64,000 nt of DNA from Pseudomonas sp. LRP2-20 (GTDB taxonomy: Bacteria > Pseudomonadota > Gammaproteobacteria > Pseudomonadales > Pseudomonadaceae): positions 62,001-126,000 of the forward strand of contig NZ_AP025944.1 in the NCBI RefSeq assembly GCF_024349685.1, given 5' to 3'. A program made the translations under genes and the position numbers. The notes under the pieces are model-generated. The model was not told where the DNA came from. It saw only the letters and a program-made list of their open reading frames with translations, and made no database searches. This document shows positions 15,911-46,730 of this stretch, one piece after another. Within the stretch, counting starts at the first letter, position 1, and each line of letters opens with the position of its first letter.

Positions 15911-16001
15911 GGGCCTCTTCGCGGGTGAACCCGCTCCCACAGGTACTGCATCGCCTTCAAGGCCTGTGTAATCCCTGTGGGAGCGGGTTTACCCGCGAAA
16001 G
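15911..16001. repeat. REP palindrome pair
   Basis: Two inverted REP units (15911-15943 and 15974-16001, core gcgggtgaacccgctcccacagg) separate the convergent stops of katE and the lipoprotein gene at 16004. Confidence 0.87.
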
Positions 16002-21402: not shown

Positions 21403-21476
21403 GATAACCTAGTCCCTTTGTCGTCATTGATCCGGCTATTCTAGCTCCGGACCCGCCGAAAAGGTTGATTCTGCTC

Positions 21477-24224
21477 ATGAGCCAAGCGCCCCTCGTCCTG
21501 GTGGACGGTTCCTCCTACCTCTACCGCGCCTTCCATGCGCTGCCGCCGCTGACCACTTCCAAAGGCATGCCGACCGGCGCGGTCAAGGGTGTGCTGAACA
21601 TGCTCAAGAGCCTGCGCAAGCAATACCCCGACAGCCTGTTCGCCGTGGTCTTCGACGCCAAGGGCGGGACCTTCCGCGATGCCATGTTCGCCGAGTACAA
21701 GGCCAACCGCCCGAGCATGCCTGATGACCTGCGCGTGCAGGTCGAGCCGCTGCACGCCAGCGTCCGGGCGCTGGGCTACCCCTTGCTGTGCGTCGAAGGC
21801 GTCGAGGCCGATGACGTGATCGGCACCCTCGCCCGCAGCAGCGCGACCCAGGGCCGGCCGGTGATCATCTCGACCGGCGACAAGGACATGGCGCAGCTGG
21901 TGGACGGCCACGTGACACTGGTCAACACCATGACCGGCAGTGTGCTGGACGTGGCCGGCGTGCACGAAAAGTTCGGCGTTGGTCCGGAACACATCATCGA
22001 CTTCCTTGCCCTGATGGGTGACAAGGTCGACAACATCCCGGGCGTGCCGGGTGTCGGTGAAAAAACCGCTGTTGGCCTGCTGACCGGAATCGGCGGCGGC
22101 CTGAGCGACCTGTACGCCAACCTCGACAAGGTTCCGGCCCTGGCCATCCGGGGTGCCAAGACCCTGCCCGCCAAGCTTGAAGAGCACCGCGACGCGGCGT
22201 TCCTGTCCTATGAGCTGGCCACCATCAAGTGCGATGTGCCGCTGGAGGTGGAAGTCGAAGCGCTGGTCTGCGGCGAGCCTGACCGCGAGGCGCTGCTGGC
22301 GCTGTACACCGAGATGGAGTTCAAGAGCTGGATCGCCGACGTGCAGCGCGATGCAGCCAAGGTCGGCGATGCCGTCGCCGCGGTCGAAGTGCCGGCCGCC
22401 ACGGTCGAGCCCAAGTACGAGACCATCCTCGACCAGGCGCGCTTCGACGCCTGGCTGGATAAGCTGCGCCAGGCGCCGCTGTTCGCCTTCGACACCGAAA
22501 CCACCAGCCTGGACGCCCAGCAGGCGCAGCTGGTTGGCCTGTCGTTCGCCGTCGAGCCCCATGAAGCGGCCTATGTACCGCTGGCCCACGACTACGAAGG
22601 CGCGCCGGCCCAGCTGGACCGCGAGGCGGTGCTGCTGGCGTTGAAACCGCTGCTGGAAGACCCGGCCAAGGCCAAGGTCGGGCAGAACGCCAAGTACGAC
22701 ATCAACATCCTCGCCAACACCTCGCCCGCCATCGAGATGCGCGGCGTGGCCTACGACACCATGCTCGAGTCGTACGTGCTCAATTCCACCGCCACCCGTC
22801 ATGACATGGACAGCCTGGCGCTGAAATACCTCGACCACACCACCATCGCCTTCGAGGACATCGCCGGCAAGGGTGCCAAGCAGCTGACCTTCAACCAGAT
22901 CAACCTGGACAAGGCCGGCCCTTACGCCGCCGAGGATGCCGACATCACCCTGCGCCTGCACCACGCGCTGCAGGCGCGCCTGGCGCAGACGCCAAGCGTG
23001 CAGCCGGTGCTGATGGACATCGAGATGCCGCTGGTGCCGGTACTGGCCAAGATCGAGCGCCAGGGCGCATTGGTCGATGCGGCGTTGCTGCAGGTGCAAA
23101 GCGGCGAGCTGGGCGTGAAGATGGCCGAACTGGAGCAGCGCGCCTACGCGCTGGCCGGCGAGGAATTCAACCTTGGCTCGCCCAAGCAGCTGGGGGCGAT
23201 CCTCTACGACAAGCTGGGCATGCCAGTGTTGAGCAAGACCGCCAAGGGCCAGCCTTCCACCGCCGAAGCGGTGCTCGACGAGCTGGCCGAGCAAGGTTAT
23301 CCGCTGCCTGAGGTGCTGATGCAGTACCGCAGCCTGAGCAAGCTCAAGAGCACCTACACCGACAAGCTGCCGGGGCAGATCAACCCGCGCACCGGGCGCA
23401 TCCACACCTCCTACCAGCAGGCCGTGGCCGCCACCGGGCGCCTGTCGTCCAGCGACCCGAACCTGCAGAACATCCCGATCCGCACCGCCGAAGGCCGGCG
23501 CATTCGCCAGGCCTTCGTTGCCAGCCCCGGCTACAAGCTGGTGGCGGCGGACTATTCGCAGATCGAACTGCGCATCATGGCCCACCTGGCCAAGGACGAA
23601 GGCTTGCTGCACGCCTTCCGCAACGATCTGGACGTGCACCGCGCCACCGCCGCTGAAGTGTTCGGCGTGGCGCTGGAAGAGGTCACCACCGACCAGCGCC
23701 GCAGCGCCAAGGCCATCAACTTCGGCCTGATCTACGGCATGAGTGCGTTCGGCCTGGCCAAGCAGATCGGCGTCGACCGCAAACAGTCGCAGGATTACAT
23801 CGACCGCTACTTCGCCCGCTACCCCGGCGTGCTGGCCTACATGGAGCGCACCCGCGCCCAGGCGGCGGAGCAAGGTTTCGTCGAAACCCTGTTTGGCCGC
23901 CGCCTGTACCTGCCGGACATCAACGCCAAGAACCCGGCCTTGCGCAAGGGTGCCGAGCGCACGGCGATCAACGCGCCGATGCAGGGCACTGCCGCCGACA
24001 TCATCAAGCGCGCCATGGTCAACGTCGACAACTGGCTGAGCGCCAGCGGCCTGGACGCACGCGTGATCCTGCAAGTGCACGACGAACTGGTGCTGGAAGT
24101 GCGTGCGGACCTGGTCGAGCAGGTGAAAGATGAAATTCGCACGCACATGAGCAGCGCCGCACAGCTGGATGTTCCGCTGGTGGTCGAGGCAGGTGTTGGT
24201 TTGAATTGGGACGAAGCTCACTGA
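21477..24224 (+). CDS. polA: DNA polymerase I
   Basis: Repair and Okazaki-fragment polymerase, 915 aa with three domains: 5' nuclease (about 1-290, starting [18 protein letters not shown]), 3'-5' proofreading exonuclease (about 315-510) and family A polymerase (about 520-915). The proofreading motifs are intact: FDTETTSLD near 336, [11 protein letters not shown] near 403 and [12 protein letters not shown] near 483. Polymerase motifs are [14 protein letters not shown] near 692, [19 protein letters not shown] near 742 and VHDELVLEV near 866. The ATG at 21477 is preferred over a TTG at 21465 because the family begins [12 protein letters not shown]. Confidence 0.97.
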
Positions 24225-24338: not shown

Positions 24339-24367
24339 GGAACTAAACCGGTGAAGCGGAACTCAGA
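24339..24367 (+). promoter_or_regulatory. sigma-22 (AlgU/RpoE-type) promoter for the polA-engB small RNA
   Basis: The -35 GGAACT (24339-24344) and the -10 TCAGA (24363-24367) are separated so that GAACTA-N17-TCAGA closely follows the AlgU consensus GAACTT-N16/17-TCTGA. The predicted start is about 24373-24375. In P. aeruginosa the small RNA at this locus is transcribed by sigma-22. Confidence 0.72.
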
Positions 24368-24373
24368 GTAACT

Positions 24374-24503
24374 GAATGGCTGGTGAAGCCTTTCGATGCT
24401 CCTATGTTGTGTTAAGTGTTGGCAGATACCTGGACCCCGCCCTAGCGGTCCAGACTTGAACCCCGAACTTCCCCCTCCCCATACGAAGTCCGGGGTTTTT
24501 TTT
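24374..24503 (+). ncRNA. ersA: ErsA-like small regulatory RNA in the polA-engB interval
   Basis: Predicted RNA of about 130 nt running from the start implied by the AlgU-type promoter to the T-run at 24496-24503. It contains a stem tggacc...ggtcca (24431-24452) and a Rho-independent terminator aaccccgaactt...aagtccggggtt with eight T. The terminator loop carries the C-rich stretch ccccctcccc, a likely seed for G-rich ribosome binding sites. Length (ErsA of P. aeruginosa is 132 nt), locus (the same interval that holds Spot 42 in enterics), promoter type and C-rich loop all agree. No open reading frame fits. The exact 5' end is inferred. Confidence 0.85.
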
Positions 24504-24537
24504 GCCCGGAATTTGACCTGTGGCCTGTAGGCAACCT

Positions 24538-24611
24538 CTGTGGGAGCGGGTTCACCCGCGAATGCGATGTTGAATGTGCCGTCGCATTCGCGGGTGAACC
24601 CGCTCCCACAG
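24538..24611. repeat. REP palindrome pair forming a perfect 30-bp inverted repeat
   Basis: The arms 24538-24567 and 24582-24611 are perfect reverse complements with a 14-nt loop. Each contains the REP core gggagcgggttcacccgcg extended by aatgcga. It lies downstream of the small RNA and 17 nt past the engB stop, on the convergent side. Confidence 0.9.
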
Positions 24612-24627: not shown

Positions 24628-25260
24628 TCAAACAGCTGGCTTGTCTTCCAGTTCCATCCAGTCCGCCAGCACCCGGTAGGCCTCTTCCAGGCCCAGGCGC
24701 TTGGGCGCCGAGAACAGCTGGATGGTCACGCCATCACCCCAGCCCTTGCGGATTTCCGACTGGACCTTGAGCAGGGTGTTCTTGCCCGCACCGTGGGTCA
24801 GCTTGTCGGCCTTGGTCAGCAGGATGTGCATCGGCATGCCGCTGGCCTTGGCCCAGTCGAGCATCATCTTGTCGAAATCGGTCATCGGGTGGCGCGTGTC
24901 CATCATCAGGATCACCCCACGCAGGCACTCGCGGCTGCCGAGGTACGCCTCCAGGTGTTTCTGCCAGTGCTGCTTGAGCGGAATCGGGACTTTTGCATAT
25001 CCGTAGCCCGGCAGGTCGACCAAACGCCGTTCATCGTCCAGACTGAAGAAATTCAACAGCTGGGTGCGCCCTGGGGTTTTCGAGGTACGCGCCAGGCTGG
25101 CATGAGTCAGGGTATTGAGGGCGCTGGATTTGCCGGCGTTGGAACGGCCGGCGAAAGCCACCTCGTAACCCTGGTCGTCCGGGCATTGTTCGACCTTGGC
25201 AGCGCTGAGGGCGAATTTGGCTTTCTGGCAGAGGCCGAGGATGGGGTTCTTGACTTGCAT
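24628..25260 (-). CDS. engB: ribosome biogenesis GTP-binding protein EngB/YihA/YsxC
   Basis: Small essential GTPase involved in 50S subunit assembly, 210 aa. G-motifs are GRSNAGKSS (G1, near 36), the TPGRT threonine (G2 region), [10 protein letters not shown] (G3, near 82) and TKAD (G4, near 148). The start [16 protein letters not shown] at 25260 matches the usual N terminus; the frame is open for a further 94 codons upstream, but that region contains the promoter of the divergent cytochrome gene. No strong Shine-Dalgarno is visible. Confidence 0.93.
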
Positions 25261-25333
25261 GGGATATCCGATGTGGGTGTTGCCAAAGCCTAGGCCGGCA
25301 AGCGGTGTCGTTTCCGTTTGGATGGCGGAAGTA

Positions 25334-25339
25334 TATAAT
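25334..25339 (+). promoter_or_regulatory. consensus -10 (TATAAT) upstream of the cytochrome c gene
   Basis: A perfect TATAAT lies between the divergent engB and cytochrome genes. The expected -35 position (tttccg at 25311) is weak. A start near 25346 would give a leader of about 108 nt to the ATG at 25454. Confidence 0.5.
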
Positions 25340-25453
25340 GCCCCAGTTTTTGTGTGCTCATTCTTCCAGCGAAGGGGAATGCGCATGGGGTGTCGAACAA
25401 TAGCTCGCGCATCAGAACGCAGCGCGTCCCCCAACCCTGTCAGGTCGTTTCGC

Positions 25454-25756
25454 ATGGCGAAATGGCTGCTAGCTGTCGGTATGTTCCTGCCGTTTTTCAG
25501 CGCACAGGCTACACAGGATCCCGAGGCGTTGTACAACCGCACGTGTGCGGCCTGTCACGCCGGGCAGTTGCCACAGGCACCCAAGAAGGGTGACCCGGCA
25601 GCTTGGGAGCCAAGGCTGGCGCAAGGCATGGAGCAACTGGTGGTGCATGTTACCCAGGGTTTCAAGGCTATGCCGCCGCGTGGATTGTGCATGGACTGCA
25701 GTGCCGAGGACTACCGTTTGGTCATCCTTTGGATGAGCGGCAGTCCCGATACATAA
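25454..25756 (+). CDS. small periplasmic c-type cytochrome (cytochrome c5-like)
   Basis: 100-aa protein with a signal peptide ([19 protein letters not shown]) and a single heme site CAACH near residue 30, with the axial Met probably in [10 protein letters not shown]. The pair of cysteines in GLCMDCS near the C terminus recalls the cytochrome c5 family. The start at 25454 is chosen because the signal peptide begins there. An ATG at 25385 has a better ribosome site (GAAGGGGA) but adds 23 residues with atypical codons. It lies 31 nt before the cytochrome c4 gene, probably cotranscribed. Likely an electron carrier to terminal oxidases. Confidence 0.85.
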
Positions 25757-33173: not shown

Positions 33174-34952
33174 TCAGACTGGCAAGGCCATGTAGAACTG
33201 TGTGCCCTGCCCTGGCCGGGAAAACACCCCCATGCGCCCGCCATGCAACTGCACGATCTCCTTGCACAGTGCCAGCCCCAACCCGGCGCCACCTTTCTTG
33301 CGCCCCACCTGTACGAACGGCTCGAAGATCCGCCCCTGCTGCCCGTAGGCGATGCCTTCACCATTATCCTCGACACTGATGATCACCCGCTCCGCATGCC
33401 GCCGTGCATGCAGGCGGATGCGCCCGCCGCTGGCGGTATGGCGAATGGCGTTGTGCAGCAGGTTGTCCAGCACCCGGTCGAGTTGCGCCACGTCGGCCTG
33501 GATACGTGGCAGCGGTGGCTCCAGGGCTTTGATCAGCTCGATCTGCTTGTTGGCAGCCTGCTCGCCGAAGCGTGCTTGCGCCCTGTCGAGCAGTTCGTCG
33601 ATGGCGCATGGGGCAAGCTCAAGCTTCTGCAAGCCGCTCTGGTAGCGCGAGAAATTGAGCAGGTCGTTGATCAGTTGGGTCAGGCGCTGCATTTCCTCGC
33701 TGATAGTCTCCAGCAGATCGTTCTCGCGTGCCTCGGGCGGGAACTTCAACCGTTCACGCAACAGGCCGAATGCCATGTGCATGCCCGTCACCGGAGTGCG
33801 CAGCTCATGGGAAGCACGCAGTACGAACTCGCTGCGTACGCGCTCGAAGGCGCGTTGCTCGGTGACATCGTGCAACACCATGACCGCGCCCAGGATCGGC
33901 CCTTGCGGATGGCTGACCGGGGTCAGGCTGTAGGTCAGCAGTCGGGATTCTTCATCGACCTCGATGCTCAGGTCGTCCGGTGGGCGATCCAGGCTGCCGC
34001 CCCGCAGCACCTGGCGCAGCTGTTGCTCCAGCTCCGGGCGCTGCAGGGCTTCGGCCAGGCCACTGCCGACGCGGCTGTTGTTCCAGCCCAGCTGCCGCTG
34101 TGCAACCGGGTTGAGGTGCTCCAGGTGACCTTGGCGGTCGATGATCAGCAAGCCGTCGTCGATACTGTCGAGTACGGCCTGCAGGCGCTGCTGGCCAGCC
34201 AGCAGTTCGTCGACATTGGTTTCCTGGTGCTTGCGCAGGGCCTCGGCCATCAGCCCGAAACGGCGGGTCAGCTGGTTGAGTTCGATGGCTTGGGTGACCG
34301 GCAGGGTGATTTCGAAATCCCCCTGGCCGAGCTGGTCGGCAGCCTTGGCCAGGGCTTCGATCGGCTGGCCGAAGCGGCGGGCGATATTGTGCGCGGTGAC
34401 GAAACCGAGCACCAGCACCACCAGCCCCATCAGGCCCAGCACACCGCTGACCAGCAAGGCGCGGTCACGGGTGTGCTCTTCGCTGCGGGTGATGTAATCG
34501 AGGGCCTGTTTGTGCGAATCGACCAGGTCGCTGCGCACCTGGTTGAATGCTGCCCCCAGTGGTTGATCAATGCCCATGCTGCGGGCCGGTGCCGAGCTTT
34601 CGCGGTAAGCCTGCAGAAAGGCCTGGTAGTTGCTGCTGGCCTTGCTGAAACCGGTGCGTTCGCCGCCTTGCGTCAGGCCCTGGTTGAGCAGTTGCTGAAA
34701 GTCGTCCTGCAAGGTTCGCAGGTTTTCCGGGGCAGTGTCCTCGTCCAGCAGCAATATCAGTTGCTCGCCGAGGTTCTGCCGCAGTTTCAAGCCCACTTCC
34801 AGCGCATGGGTGGTTTCGCGCACCGACTGCTGCTGCACCGTGGCCATCTGCAGCACGCTCACCAAGCCCAGCAACAGGCCCAGCAGGGCCACGGTCACCA
34901 GGGCAGAGATGCTGAGAAAGAGCCGCGTGCGCAGCTTCATCGGCAGCCTCAT
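33174..34952 (-). CDS. kinB: sensor histidine kinase/phosphatase KinB
   Basis: Membrane partner of AlgB, 592 aa. It has two membrane helices (about 10-32 and 170-192) flanking a periplasmic helical sensor, a HAMP linker, a PAS domain (about 255-360), the phosphoacceptor HisKA site ASHELRTPVTGM (His near 381), and an ATPase domain with N-box LLHNAIRHTASG and G-box VEDNGEGIAYG. The ATG at 34952 overlaps the algB stop (ATGA), so translation is coupled. It converges on the EAL gene. In P. aeruginosa KinB acts mainly as a phosphatase on AlgB and governs alginate and virulence. Confidence 0.94.
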   Translation of the reverse strand: MRLPMKLRTRLFLSISALVTVALLGLLLGLVSVLQMATVQQQSVRETTHALEVGLKLRQNLGEQLILLLDEDTAPENLRTLQDDFQQLLNQGLTQGGERTGFSKASSNYQAFLQAYRESSAPARSMGIDQPLGAAFNQVRSDLVDSHKQALDYITRSEEHTRDRALLVSGVLGLMGLVVLVLGFVTAHNIARRFGQPIEALAKAADQLGQGDFEITLPVTQAIELNQLTRRFGLMAEALRKHQETNVDELLAGQQRLQAVLDSIDDGLLIIDRQGHLEHLNPVAQRQLGWNNSRVGSGLAEALQRPELEQQLRQVLRGGSLDRPPDDLSIEVDEESRLLTYSLTPVSHPQGPILGAVMVLHDVTEQRAFERVRSEFVLRASHELRTPVTGMHMAFGLLRERLKFPPEARENDLLETISEEMQRLTQLINDLLNFSRYQSGLQKLELAPCAIDELLDRAQARFGEQAANKQIELIKALEPPLPRIQADVAQLDRVLDNLLHNAIRHTASGGRIRLHARRHAERVIISVEDNGEGIAYGQQGRIFEPFVQVGRKKGGAGLGLALCKEIVQLHGGRMGVFSRPGQGTQFYMALPV

Positions 34953-36295
34953 AGGTTGTACTGCTTGCGTTTGCGGTAGAGCGTGGAGGCGTCGATGCCG
35001 AGGGTCTTGGCAGCCTGGTCGAGGGTGTCGCTGGCGGCAAGTACCGCGCCGATGTGCGCCCGTTCCAGTTCATCCAGGCTCATGGCCGCGCCTACCCGGG
35101 GCGCATTGCCTGCGGGCTGTTCGCCCATGCCGAGGTGGACGATTTCGACGCGCTCCTGCGGGCAGATGATGCTGGCACGTTCGATGACGTTGCGCAGTTC
35201 GCGGATGTTACCCGGCCAGCGGTAGTTGAGCAGCGCACTGCGCGCTTCGTCGCTGAAGCCACGGGCCGGGCGGGAGTATTCCTTGACGAAGCGGGCCAGG
35301 AAGCGGTCGGCCAGGGTCAGGATGTCCTCGCTGCGCTCGCGCAGCGGCGGCAGATGCAAGGTAATGACGTTGAGGCGGTACAGCAGGTCTTCACGGAAGC
35401 GGTTCTCGCGCACCATGTCGTCCAGGTTGAGGTTGGTCGCCGCGAGAATGCGCACGTCGGCGCGTCGGGTGACCGGGTCGCCGACCCGCTCGTACTCCTT
35501 GTCCTGGATGAAACGCAGCAGCTTGGGCTGCAAGGTCAGGGGGAAATCGCCGATTTCATCGAGAAACAGCGTACCGCCGTCCGCCTGGCTGACCCGGCCC
35601 AGCGTGCTTTCGCTGGCGCCGGTAAAGGCCCCGCGGGTATGGCCGAACAGTTCGCTCTCCATCAGTTCGGCATTCAGCGACGGGCAGTTGATGGTCACGC
35701 AGGCCTTGCGCGCCCGCTTGCTCCAGCCGTGGATGGCGCGGGCCAGTTCGCCCTTGCCGGTACCCGATTCGCCGAGGATGAGGATGTTGGCATCGGTGGT
35801 GGCCACTTGGCGGGCGGTTTCCAGCACCGCCATCATCGCCGGGCTGTGCGAGTCGAGGCCGTCCTTGGGCTTGCGCACTTCGCCTTCGAGGGCTTCCAGG
35901 CGCGCCGAAAGCTGGCGGACTTCCAGCTGCTTGGCGGTGGCCAGGCGCAGTTGGTCGGGGCTGCAGGGTTTGACCAGGTAATCGGCGGCACCGGCCTGGA
36001 TGGCATCGACTGCGGTGTCGATCGCCGAATGTGCGGTGACGATCACCACCCGCATCCAGGGTGCCTGAATACGCATTTGCGCCAGTACGTCGAGGCCATT
36101 GTCCTCGCCCAGGCGCAGGTCGAGGAAACACAGGTCGAACACCTGGCGCTGGAGCAAGGCCTCAGCCTGCGCGGCGCTGTTGGCGGTGGCCACGCTGTAG
36201 CCTTCGTCTTCCAGGCAGTAGCGGAAGGTGCGCAGGATCGCGGACTCGTCATCCACCAGCAGAATGCGGCCTTGGTTGTCCTGGGCTGATTCCAT
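34949..36295 (-). CDS. algB: NtrC-family response regulator AlgB
   Basis: Response regulator paired with KinB, 448 aa. The receiver domain (about 10-125) has phosphoacceptor Asp59 in FLDLRLGEDNG. The AAA+ domain (about 145-380) has Walker A GESGTGKGEL, the sigma-54 contact loop GAFTGA and Walker B LFLDEIGDF. The C-terminal Fis-type helix-turn-helix reads LDQAAKTLGIDASTLYRKRKQYNL in part. GAAGGAGCGCAGGAA precedes the ATG at 36295. In P. aeruginosa AlgB activates alginate synthesis (algD) and is linked to AlgU-regulated genes; here it neighbours several envelope genes. Confidence 0.95.
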   Translation of the reverse strand: MESAQDNQGRILLVDDESAILRTFRYCLEDEGYSVATANSAAQAEALLQRQVFDLCFLDLRLGEDNGLDVLAQMRIQAPWMRVVIVTAHSAIDTAVDAIQAGAADYLVKPCSPDQLRLATAKQLEVRQLSARLEALEGEVRKPKDGLDSHSPAMMAVLETARQVATTDANILILGESGTGKGELARAIHGWSKRARKACVTINCPSLNAELMESELFGHTRGAFTGASESTLGRVSQADGGTLFLDEIGDFPLTLQPKLLRFIQDKEYERVGDPVTRRADVRILAATNLNLDDMVRENRFREDLLYRLNVITLHLPPLRERSEDILTLADRFLARFVKEYSRPARGFSDEARSALLNYRWPGNIRELRNVIERASIICPQERVEIVHLGMGEQPAGNAPRVGAAMSLDELERAHIGAVLAASDTLDQAAKTLGIDASTLYRKRKQYNL

Positions 36296-36505
36296 TTCCT
36301 GCGCTCCTTCGGGTAGGTCTTCAATTAGTGTGGGGAAAATCGGGCAAGTTGCACGGTCAATTGTGAAGGAAACGGTCCTTTGCATGCTAGCCAATGGCCA
36401 AGCCTTACCGTGACGCCGGATATCTCGATGATTTCCTTAGAGCAGCGCGCTGGCACATTGGTTGCGATGATTTTCTGCTTTTGCCAACTAAAAGGAGGTA
36501 CAGCC

Positions 36506-38478: not shown

Positions 38479-39207
38479 CCAGCGGTCGCGCGCTGTCATC
38501 TGATGGAAGCGGAACCTTTTTATCTTTCTCGCTTCTATGATGCGCCGCCCCGAGGAGGGGTAGCGCATGACCAGGGGGCCGGGCTGTTCTGATTGTTGCA
38601 GGATCGGAGTGGCCTAGGGGTACAGGGAGTACCTCCAGCACTGGGCCGGGTCAGGCAAAGGCAGAATCGGAAGCTTCAGGTCAGGCGTGTCGAAAAACAC
38701 GTGCACCCGGCCTGGCTTCCGAGGCGCCATCCCGCCGTTTTGCTAAATCCTTTCAGGATTTCTCTCTTGAGACACATTTTGTCTTGACCGTACATCAAAT
38801 TTTTTTCGCTCAATACGGGTGCCGCGCAAGTGTCATTTCGGCCATTCGGATTGTCGAACAAGCCGTTTTTATCCCTGCCAATACACCGCCAAAACTGCCT
38901 AAATATGGCGGTTTGGTCTTGTTCGGATTTCCGAACGTTATAAATCAATGACTTACGTGCGGCGTATTTTGACTTCGATGTCTATGCCGTATCGGCATGG
39001 GGTATGCGTTTCCGGCATTAGATTTCAGCCTTCCCCGTCGCAATAGTTGCCGCCTTTTTCGCTGGCCCGAGCGCCCTGTCGCTCGCTCGCGGTGTCCTTA
39101 CATGAGGTCTCCGGACGGAAGCCAAAAGCTCCCCGTGACGTTGCCAACGGCTTTGTTACGCGCTTTTCCGGTCGGTGCCCGTGACCACTACAACAAAGGG
39201 TAAAGAC
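38479..39207. other. 729-bp gene-free region with strong hairpins upstream of gltP
   Basis: No convincing coding frame is visible on either strand. Direct observations are: (a) a hairpin atgcgc..cccc-gagga-gggg..gcgcat at 38540-38568, with GGA in its loop; (b) a long imperfect stem at 38670-38722 (ggaagc...gcttcc, enclosing cagg/cctg and cgtgt/acacg); (c) a nested dyad at 38847-38933 (cgaacaag, ccgcca / tggcgg, cttgttcg); and (d) lower GC content than the flanks from about 38740 to 39000. A weak AlgU-like promoter (GAACCT-N16-TCTAT, 38512-38538) precedes (a). It may hold a small RNA plus the gltP control region. Confidence 0.5.
38847..38933. promoter_or_regulatory. nested inverted repeat upstream of gltP
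   Basis: Outer arms cggattgtcgaacaag (38847-38862) and cttgttcggatttccg (38918-38933) are largely complementary, with CGAACAAG/CTTGTTCG perfect. Inner arms CCGCCA (38886-38891) and TGGCGG (38906-38911) are perfect. It could be a transcribed hairpin or a multi-site operator. The gltP start is 275 nt downstream. Confidence 0.5.
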
Positions 39208-46630: not shown

Positions 46631-46730
46631 GCCGGCCTCTTCGCGGGTAAACCCGCTCCCACAGGTCGTGCACTGATCATGAAACCTGTGCGGTTCCTGT
46701 GGGAGCGGGTTTAGCCGCGAAAGGGCCGGT
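46631..46730. repeat. REP palindrome pair
   Basis: Inverted REP units (46631-46664 and 46696-46730, core gcgggtaaacccgctcccacagg) lie between the peptidase stop and the DUF5924 start. Both flanking genes are on the minus strand, so this is a tandem rather than a convergent interval. Confidence 0.87.

Follow-up and report, generated by a model that had tools for sequence, protein, structure and literature searches.

Which RNA does the interval between polA and engB encode in Pseudomonas sp. LRP2-20, and how is it related to the small RNAs known from other polA loci? The window analysed here is a 64-kb stretch of this genome (NZ_AP025944.1, positions 62,001 to 126,000), and coordinates are counted from its first letter. 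A first-pass annotation had placed an ErsA-type small RNA with an AlgU promoter between the two genes, at 24339-24503, which is exactly the span from the -35 element through the last U of the features listed below.

21474..24224, + strand: polA, DNA polymerase I, upstream neighbour (NCBIfam NF004397, 1196.7 bits, cut-off 720)
24339..24367, + strand: AlgU/sigma-22-type promoter, -35 GGAACTA at 24339-24345, 17-nt spacer, -10 TCAGA at 24363-24367 (position and conservation)
24374..24505, + strand: ersA, inferred small RNA of about 130-132 nt (Rfam RF01719 match; fold z -3.1)
24374..24394, + strand: SL1, predicted 5' hairpin, GAA.GGCU/AGCC.UUC (centroid fold; upstream of the Rfam model start)
24396..24428, + strand: domain II, U/G-rich, unpaired in the centroid (identity 1.00 in 32 genus loci)
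24430..24453, + strand: SL2, predicted hairpin with the C-rich loop CCCCGCCC at 24435-24442 (fold; C-rich loop in 24 of 24 copies)
24458..24503, + strand: SL3, predicted intrinsic terminator with the C-rich loop CCCCCTCCCC at 24471-24480 and a U8 run (fold; covariation; C-rich loop in 24 of 24 copies)
24628..25542, - strand: engB/yihA GTPase, convergent downstream neighbour (NCBIfam TIGR03598, 231.6 bits, cut-off 124.45)

Identity of the RNA gene

The polA-engB interval holds an RNA gene on the + strand, at the locus where ErsA lies. A covariance-model search with the ErsA family, which had been suggested as a check, gave a match of 141 bits to RF01719 (Pseudomon-1/ErsA) at 24396-24511 (+), covering model positions 1-116 of 116 with an E value of 9e-29; the gathering cut-off is 50 bits. 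When the whole window was scanned at the Rfam cut-offs, only ErsA and ivy-DE were listed, the latter (RF02999) at 38568-38661 (+) with 99.1 bits against a cut-off of 41.4. Both flanking genes were identified by NCBIfam models. TIGR03598 covers residues 108-292 of the listed engB ORF (24628-25542), and the true engB start is probably inside this ORF. The proposed elements of the RNA, namely GGAACT, TCAGA, an internal stem and a C-rich terminator loop, are all there, and its length agrees with the 132 nt that we take to be the published length of ErsA. Family score, locus, promoter, fold and length thus all point to ErsA at the level of sequence, and the first proposal was borne out. Taken as a whole, the best explanation is that 24374..24505 is almost certainly ersA of this Pseudomonas, an AlgU-type stress RNA. 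The gene shares with ErsA of P. aeruginosa and RF01719 the polA-engB locus, an AlgU-type promoter, three hairpins and a U-rich domain II, and differs from the P. aeruginosa RNA by small changes in SL1, domain II and SL2. The window gene itself is one more species' copy of an already known RNA family.

The same interval downstream of polA would also suit an orthologue of Spot 42 (spf, RF00021) of Escherichia coli, whose gene lies immediately downstream of polA; the RNA would then be a CRP-repressed carbon-catabolite RNA instead of a stress RNA. However, RF00021 had no match in the window's genome, none of 195 genomes of the order exceeded its cut-off, and the E. coli control was matched. The four weak RF00021 matches in the order (31-33 bits) had neither polA nor engB in their 1.5-kb flanks. 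The window RNA further differs from Spot 42 by its promoter, which is of the sigma-E type. Spot 42 orthology was rejected for lack of an RF00021 match, and we regard it as scarcely credible.

Elsewhere in the window, a histidine kinase and an NtrC-type regulator are encoded at 33174-36394. By synteny we take them to be KinB and AlgB, although the models that they matched were other named ones, below curated cut-offs. The locus had been tied to AlgB/KinB in the first-pass annotation; this link comes down to proximity, as nothing connects those genes to ErsA expression. Inverted pairs of a REP-like element (GGGAGCGGGTTCACCCGCGAA) were found at 24542-24607, 15918-15999 and 46640-46721, with a single element at 1417-1437; with up to 2 mismatches, there were seven matches in the window and none in 100 shuffles. 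The pair at 24542-24607 separates the ErsA terminator from the 3' end of engB, where it may halt transcription coming from engB.

Promoter and predicted fold

The claim of a sigma-22/AlgU-type promoter held up: GGAACT occupies 24339-24344, 17 nt separate the hexamer GAACTA from TCAGA, and the putative promoter GGAACTA-N17-TCAGA is kept in relatives. The start at 24374, 6 nt past the -10, was deduced from the spacing to the -10, together with agreement with the published domain numbering of ErsA. Of the 89 homologues aligned, which came from 84 sources and include 73 distinct sequences, 88 had GAACT[T/A]-N16/17-TC upstream, with a spacer of 16 nt in 18 and of 17 nt in 70; the sole exception (L097) had GAACCG. 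In dinucleotide shuffles of the same upstream stretches, the pattern occurred in 97 of 4450 (2.2%), with spacings of 13-17 allowed. The promoter is independent evidence, because our own model R1 (described below) begins some 4 bases upstream of the inferred transcript and leaves out both the -35 and the -10. All 20 copies inspected from outside Pseudomonadaceae have GAACTT, the sigma-E/AlgU -35 consensus. The window's GAACTA differs from the GAACTT of genus g9, which was taken as the P. aeruginosa group. Judged from these alignments, the stress promoter is among the most constant parts of ErsA relatives. A second GGAACT at 24358 was rejected as the -35 element: it overlaps the -10, has no -10 of its own and is absent in some close relatives (e.g. 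L002).

A sigma gene of the RpoE/AlgU class exceeded the cut-off in all eight genomes tested, including the window's own, in which this gene is followed by an ORF that is presumably MucA-like. A generic promoter and terminator scan found neither the ersA promoter nor the ersA terminator, because it seeks sigma-70 promoters and terminator loops of 3-8 nt, and the ersA loop has 13 nt.

The 132-nt RNA starting at 24374 folded 3.1 sd below dinucleotide shuffles, with none of 200 as low. In its centroid, an open stretch separates the 5' hairpin from a second one, and the terminator follows. This arrangement matches the domain plan published for P. aeruginosa ErsA, i.e. SL1, a U-rich domain II of 34 nt, SL2 and SL3 (PMC8575079). 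The SL3 stem spans 24458-24498 and the U run 24496-24503; the 3' end of ersA would lie within or just past this run. GGCAGA at the end of domain II (24421-24426) can pair with UUUGCC (24501-24506), a segment that crosses the 3' border of the U run and may fall partly outside the RNA. Pairs of this kind occurred in 9 of 17 rows folded singly.

To what extent is this fold kept among relatives? RNAalifold on a mixed MAFFT alignment returned 3 pairs only. Therefore, the rows were folded singly, the structure was set by hand for R1, and pairs were counted on the R1-fitted alignment. In this alignment, which leans towards the imposed structure, 85.6% of cells pair, compared with a shuffled mean of 74.6% and with 31-54% when the partner was slid by 1 to 3 columns. 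Changes on both sides were seen in 20 of the 21 pairs of the same alignment, i.e. the helices covary. The weakest was helix 1 (SL1), with both-side changes in 4 of 4 pairs and 71.0% of cells paired (alignment A3). Folded singly, all rows of the 17-row alignment A2 gave the two 3' hairpins, and 16 of them (not L069b) gave the 5' hairpin. Among 24 copies folded from 18 chosen loci, both 3' loops held at least CCC in every copy, though the stems differ. The 3' part of the 24 copies folded 2.9 to 7.8 sd below shuffles, and the 5' part more weakly, 1.0 to 5.2 sd.

Pairing regions and possible modes of action

Which part of the RNA would contact its targets? In 32 genus loci, a set chosen by high score and so weighted towards close relatives, sequence identity with the window was 1.00 for the -35, 0.85 for the spacer, 0.99 for the -10, 0.98 for SL1, 1.00 for domain II, 0.93 for SL2 and 0.99 for SL3. 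Outside ersA, it was 0.71 upstream and 0.53 downstream in the same loci. By this measure, conservation of domain II exceeds that of SL2 and equals or exceeds that of SL3. Its core, GTGTTnAGTGTTG, is common to the window copy and to those of Endozoicomonas and Zooshikella. In the ensemble, the core is unpaired at about 45% in the window copy and at 25-79% across the 24 copies. Domain II is likely the main pairing region. The first-pass annotation had instead put forward the C-rich terminator loop as a pairing site. This loop is real, yet it is one of two, since SL2 carries another, and domain II is the most conserved part.

Could the 5' part be translated instead? Spot 42 encodes a small protein, and in the window a 27-aa ORF begins with an ATG at 24376, two bases after the inferred start, in a frame that stays open, which would make ersA a dual-function RNA. 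The ORF gives 27 aa in 13 of 73 distinct copies, and some others share its beginning. However, the GAATGG start context is absent in 22 of the 73, and in the copies that have it small indels and shifted stops change the length to anything from 3 to 298 aa, while domain II is nearly fixed as nucleotides. A transcript start at 24374 also leaves no room for a ribosome-binding site. The translated ORF was therefore rejected on the variation of its length and start context among copies, and we consider it very improbable.

In P. aeruginosa, ErsA depends on AlgU, represses algC and oprD with the assistance of Hfq, and raises AmrZ and Anr (PMC8395346, PMC7264166, PMC5819304, PMC8575079). The contacts with amrZ and anr were assigned to domain II (PMC8575079, PMC5819304). 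Repression of oprD needs Hfq (PMC7264166), and regulation of amrZ was reported as Hfq-independent (PMC5819304). By analogy, we infer the same mode of action in the window species. Envelope stress would free AlgU, which would transcribe the RNA of about 130 nt from the promoter at 24339-24367. The predicted structure of this RNA, with covariation in its helices, has SL1 at the 5' end, then the U/G-rich stretch of domain II, SL2 and, as terminator, SL3. With domain II as the chief contact, and for the most part with Hfq assisting, the RNA would base-pair close to the start codons of mRNAs for envelope, exopolysaccharide and metabolic functions; some of these it would repress and others activate. 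The two conserved C-rich loops may form a second pairing module directed against G-rich ribosome-binding sites.

We searched for such contacts in two ways. Duplexes of domain II or either C-rich loop were scored against algC in 3 genomes and amrZ in 5, and none stood out from those with shuffled targets (lowest p 0.11). In G221, taken as P. aeruginosa group, the best amrZ site was +64 to +91, against the published +65 to +89, with p 0.13. Since the published site was recovered only at this p value, the duplex method lacks power. A seed-complement search of the window's genome placed the 11-mer CTGCCAACACT only at ersA itself and gave no target.

The C-rich loops also bring to mind sX13 of Xanthomonas, a polA-adjacent RNA with C-rich loops that needs no Hfq to repress mRNAs bearing GGGG motifs (PMC3771888). 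On this model, the two C-rich loops of the window RNA, and not domain II, would target G-rich ribosome-binding sites, perhaps without Hfq. The persistence of both C-rich 3' loops in 24 of 24 copies with differing stems speaks for it. Hairpins with apical C-rich loops next to polA are described for sX13 and, as cited there, for the alpha-r7 RNAs of alpha-proteobacteria (PMC3771888). Window ErsA shares the polA adjacency and the C-rich hairpin loops, a likeness of plan only, compared by description; sX13 itself was reported as exclusive to Xanthomonadaceae and Hfq-independent (PMC3771888). By contrast, the published amrZ and anr sites of P. aeruginosa lie in domain II, oprD repression there needs Hfq, no part of the RNA is better conserved in the genus than domain II, and the loop duplexes with algC and amrZ did not exceed shuffles. 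Action through the loops in place of domain II is therefore unlikely, and we retain pairing mainly by domain II.

Relatives within and beyond Pseudomonadaceae

RF01719 matched all 199 sampled genomes of the genus. Among 198 sampled genomes of Pseudomonadaceae, 193 had a match, which was over the cut-off in 182. The five family genomes without an RF01719 match were G224, G235, G245, G246 and G387; R1 gave 29.8 bits in G387, with neither polA nor engB in the flank, and no match in the other four. Four divergent members of the family (L140, L141, L143 and L144) had weak R1 matches of 28 to 40 bits, all beside polA. By eye, L140, L143 and L144 have GAACTT-N16-TC and a C-rich terminator loop (the promoter region of L141 falls outside the stretch inspected), and these three share little of domain II beyond TTGGCAGA. 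A second RF01719 match was present in the Pseudomonadaceae genomes G020, G021, G068, G184, G199, G205 and G216.

In a sample of 194 genomes of the order, RF01719 matched 18, of which 8 were Pseudomonadaceae and 10 were others at 34-46 bits, below the cut-off. Six outside loci searched against all of Rfam (E up to 0.5) matched RF01719 alone, with 28.7-37.3 bits. R1, our own model, was built with a hand-set structure from 17 sequences, 11 of them from outside Pseudomonadaceae. It matched 32 of 293 genomes of the order, 14 from Pseudomonadaceae and 18 from elsewhere. Of these 18, 13 scored at least 65 bits and 5 under 43 bits; the score is circular for the nine genomes in the build, and G421, G512, G587 and G605 were not in it. 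Across the scans, relatives outside Pseudomonadaceae, all below the Rfam cut-off, were seen in Endozoicomonas, Zooshikella and one further family, marine bacteria among them. Of the 13 strong R1 matches, 11 adjoin polA and/or engB. The other two, both of the further family (G389 and G433), had neither gene in the stretch fetched, which in G389 ends at the contig end. In the remaining 261 of the 293 order genomes R1 found no match, i.e. the RNA is patchy outside Pseudomonadaceae; therefore loss, divergence beyond the model and transfer are each possible. In a class-wide sample, 3 of 323 genomes matched R1, namely two Pseudomonadaceae and one weak match (G719, 37.6 bits) with no polA or engB. 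Named genomes, scanned with a pattern that requires the domain II core and not as a census, gave 13 stretches: 4 from Pseudomonadaceae, 4 from Endozoicomonas, 2 from Zooshikella and 3 unrelated ones without polA or engB. Not counted as homologues were the five order-sample matches under 43 bits, three of them from a single family and with flanks that lack both polA and engB, as well as G719 and L112, L115 and L117 (no polA or engB). On these matches, the ErsA family is wider than the Rfam cut-off shows. Endozoicomonas and Zooshikella share the locus and the kind of promoter, as far as sequence tells, and ersA probably predates Pseudomonadaceae.

Five loci of the Endozoicomonas family carried tandem copies, two in L068, L069, L102 and L103 and three in L118 (Endozoicomonas sp. 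OPT23), each copy with its own GAACTT element and U-run terminator. L111 (Endozoicomonas sp. ISHI1) had two matches and is probably the same genome as L069.

Pseudomon-1 was listed for Pseudomonadales by Weinberg et al. 2010 (PMC2864571). In open-licence PMC papers, we came across no report of the tandem arrays or of copies in Endozoicomonas, Zooshikella and the further family; among the matches listed, one paper, on Pseudomonas sp. ABC1, holds 'ErsA' together with a single mention of Endozoicomonas (PMC8085936). What is new here are these relatives outside Pseudomonadaceae (Endozoicomonas, Zooshikella and others) and their arrays; the window's own gene mainly confirms a known stress RNA in another species. 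The distant alignment helps to separate the pairing parts from the scaffold. In 2013 it was asked whether other polA loci encode RNAs and whether sX13-like RNAs with C-rich loops act alike (PMC3771888). ErsA, with its sX13-like build and its polA locus, fits the description in that question, and among open-licence PMC papers we found none naming both 'sX13' and 'ErsA'. We tentatively suggest, while leaning somewhat against the proposal as a whole, that ErsA might be a branch of an ancient, sigma-E-wired class of polA-locus RNAs. The longest-kept parts of this class would be the sigma-E promoter, a short U/G-rich core and the two C-rich loops; the loops would serve as an sX13-like second module against G-rich ribosome-binding sites, and the Endozoicomonas arrays of two or three copies as a device for dose or specialisation.

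Three loci in the order depart from the usual pattern. Two of them are the strong matches away from polA and engB, L073 3996-4139 (G433) and L065 4006-4148 (G389), where an ErsA-like RNA has a sigma-E-type promoter and neither gene appears in the sequence retrieved. In L073, msrA and a DNA polymerase II gene flank the RNA gene, which is perhaps a moved copy, once more with a DNA polymerase gene as its neighbour. The third, L070, comes from yet another family of the order (G494); it is not matched by R1 and was excluded from the 89 copies. Its polA-engB interval carries a GGAACTT element, C-rich-loop hairpins and a terminator with a U run, but no ErsA core, and may encode an intermediate polA-locus RNA.
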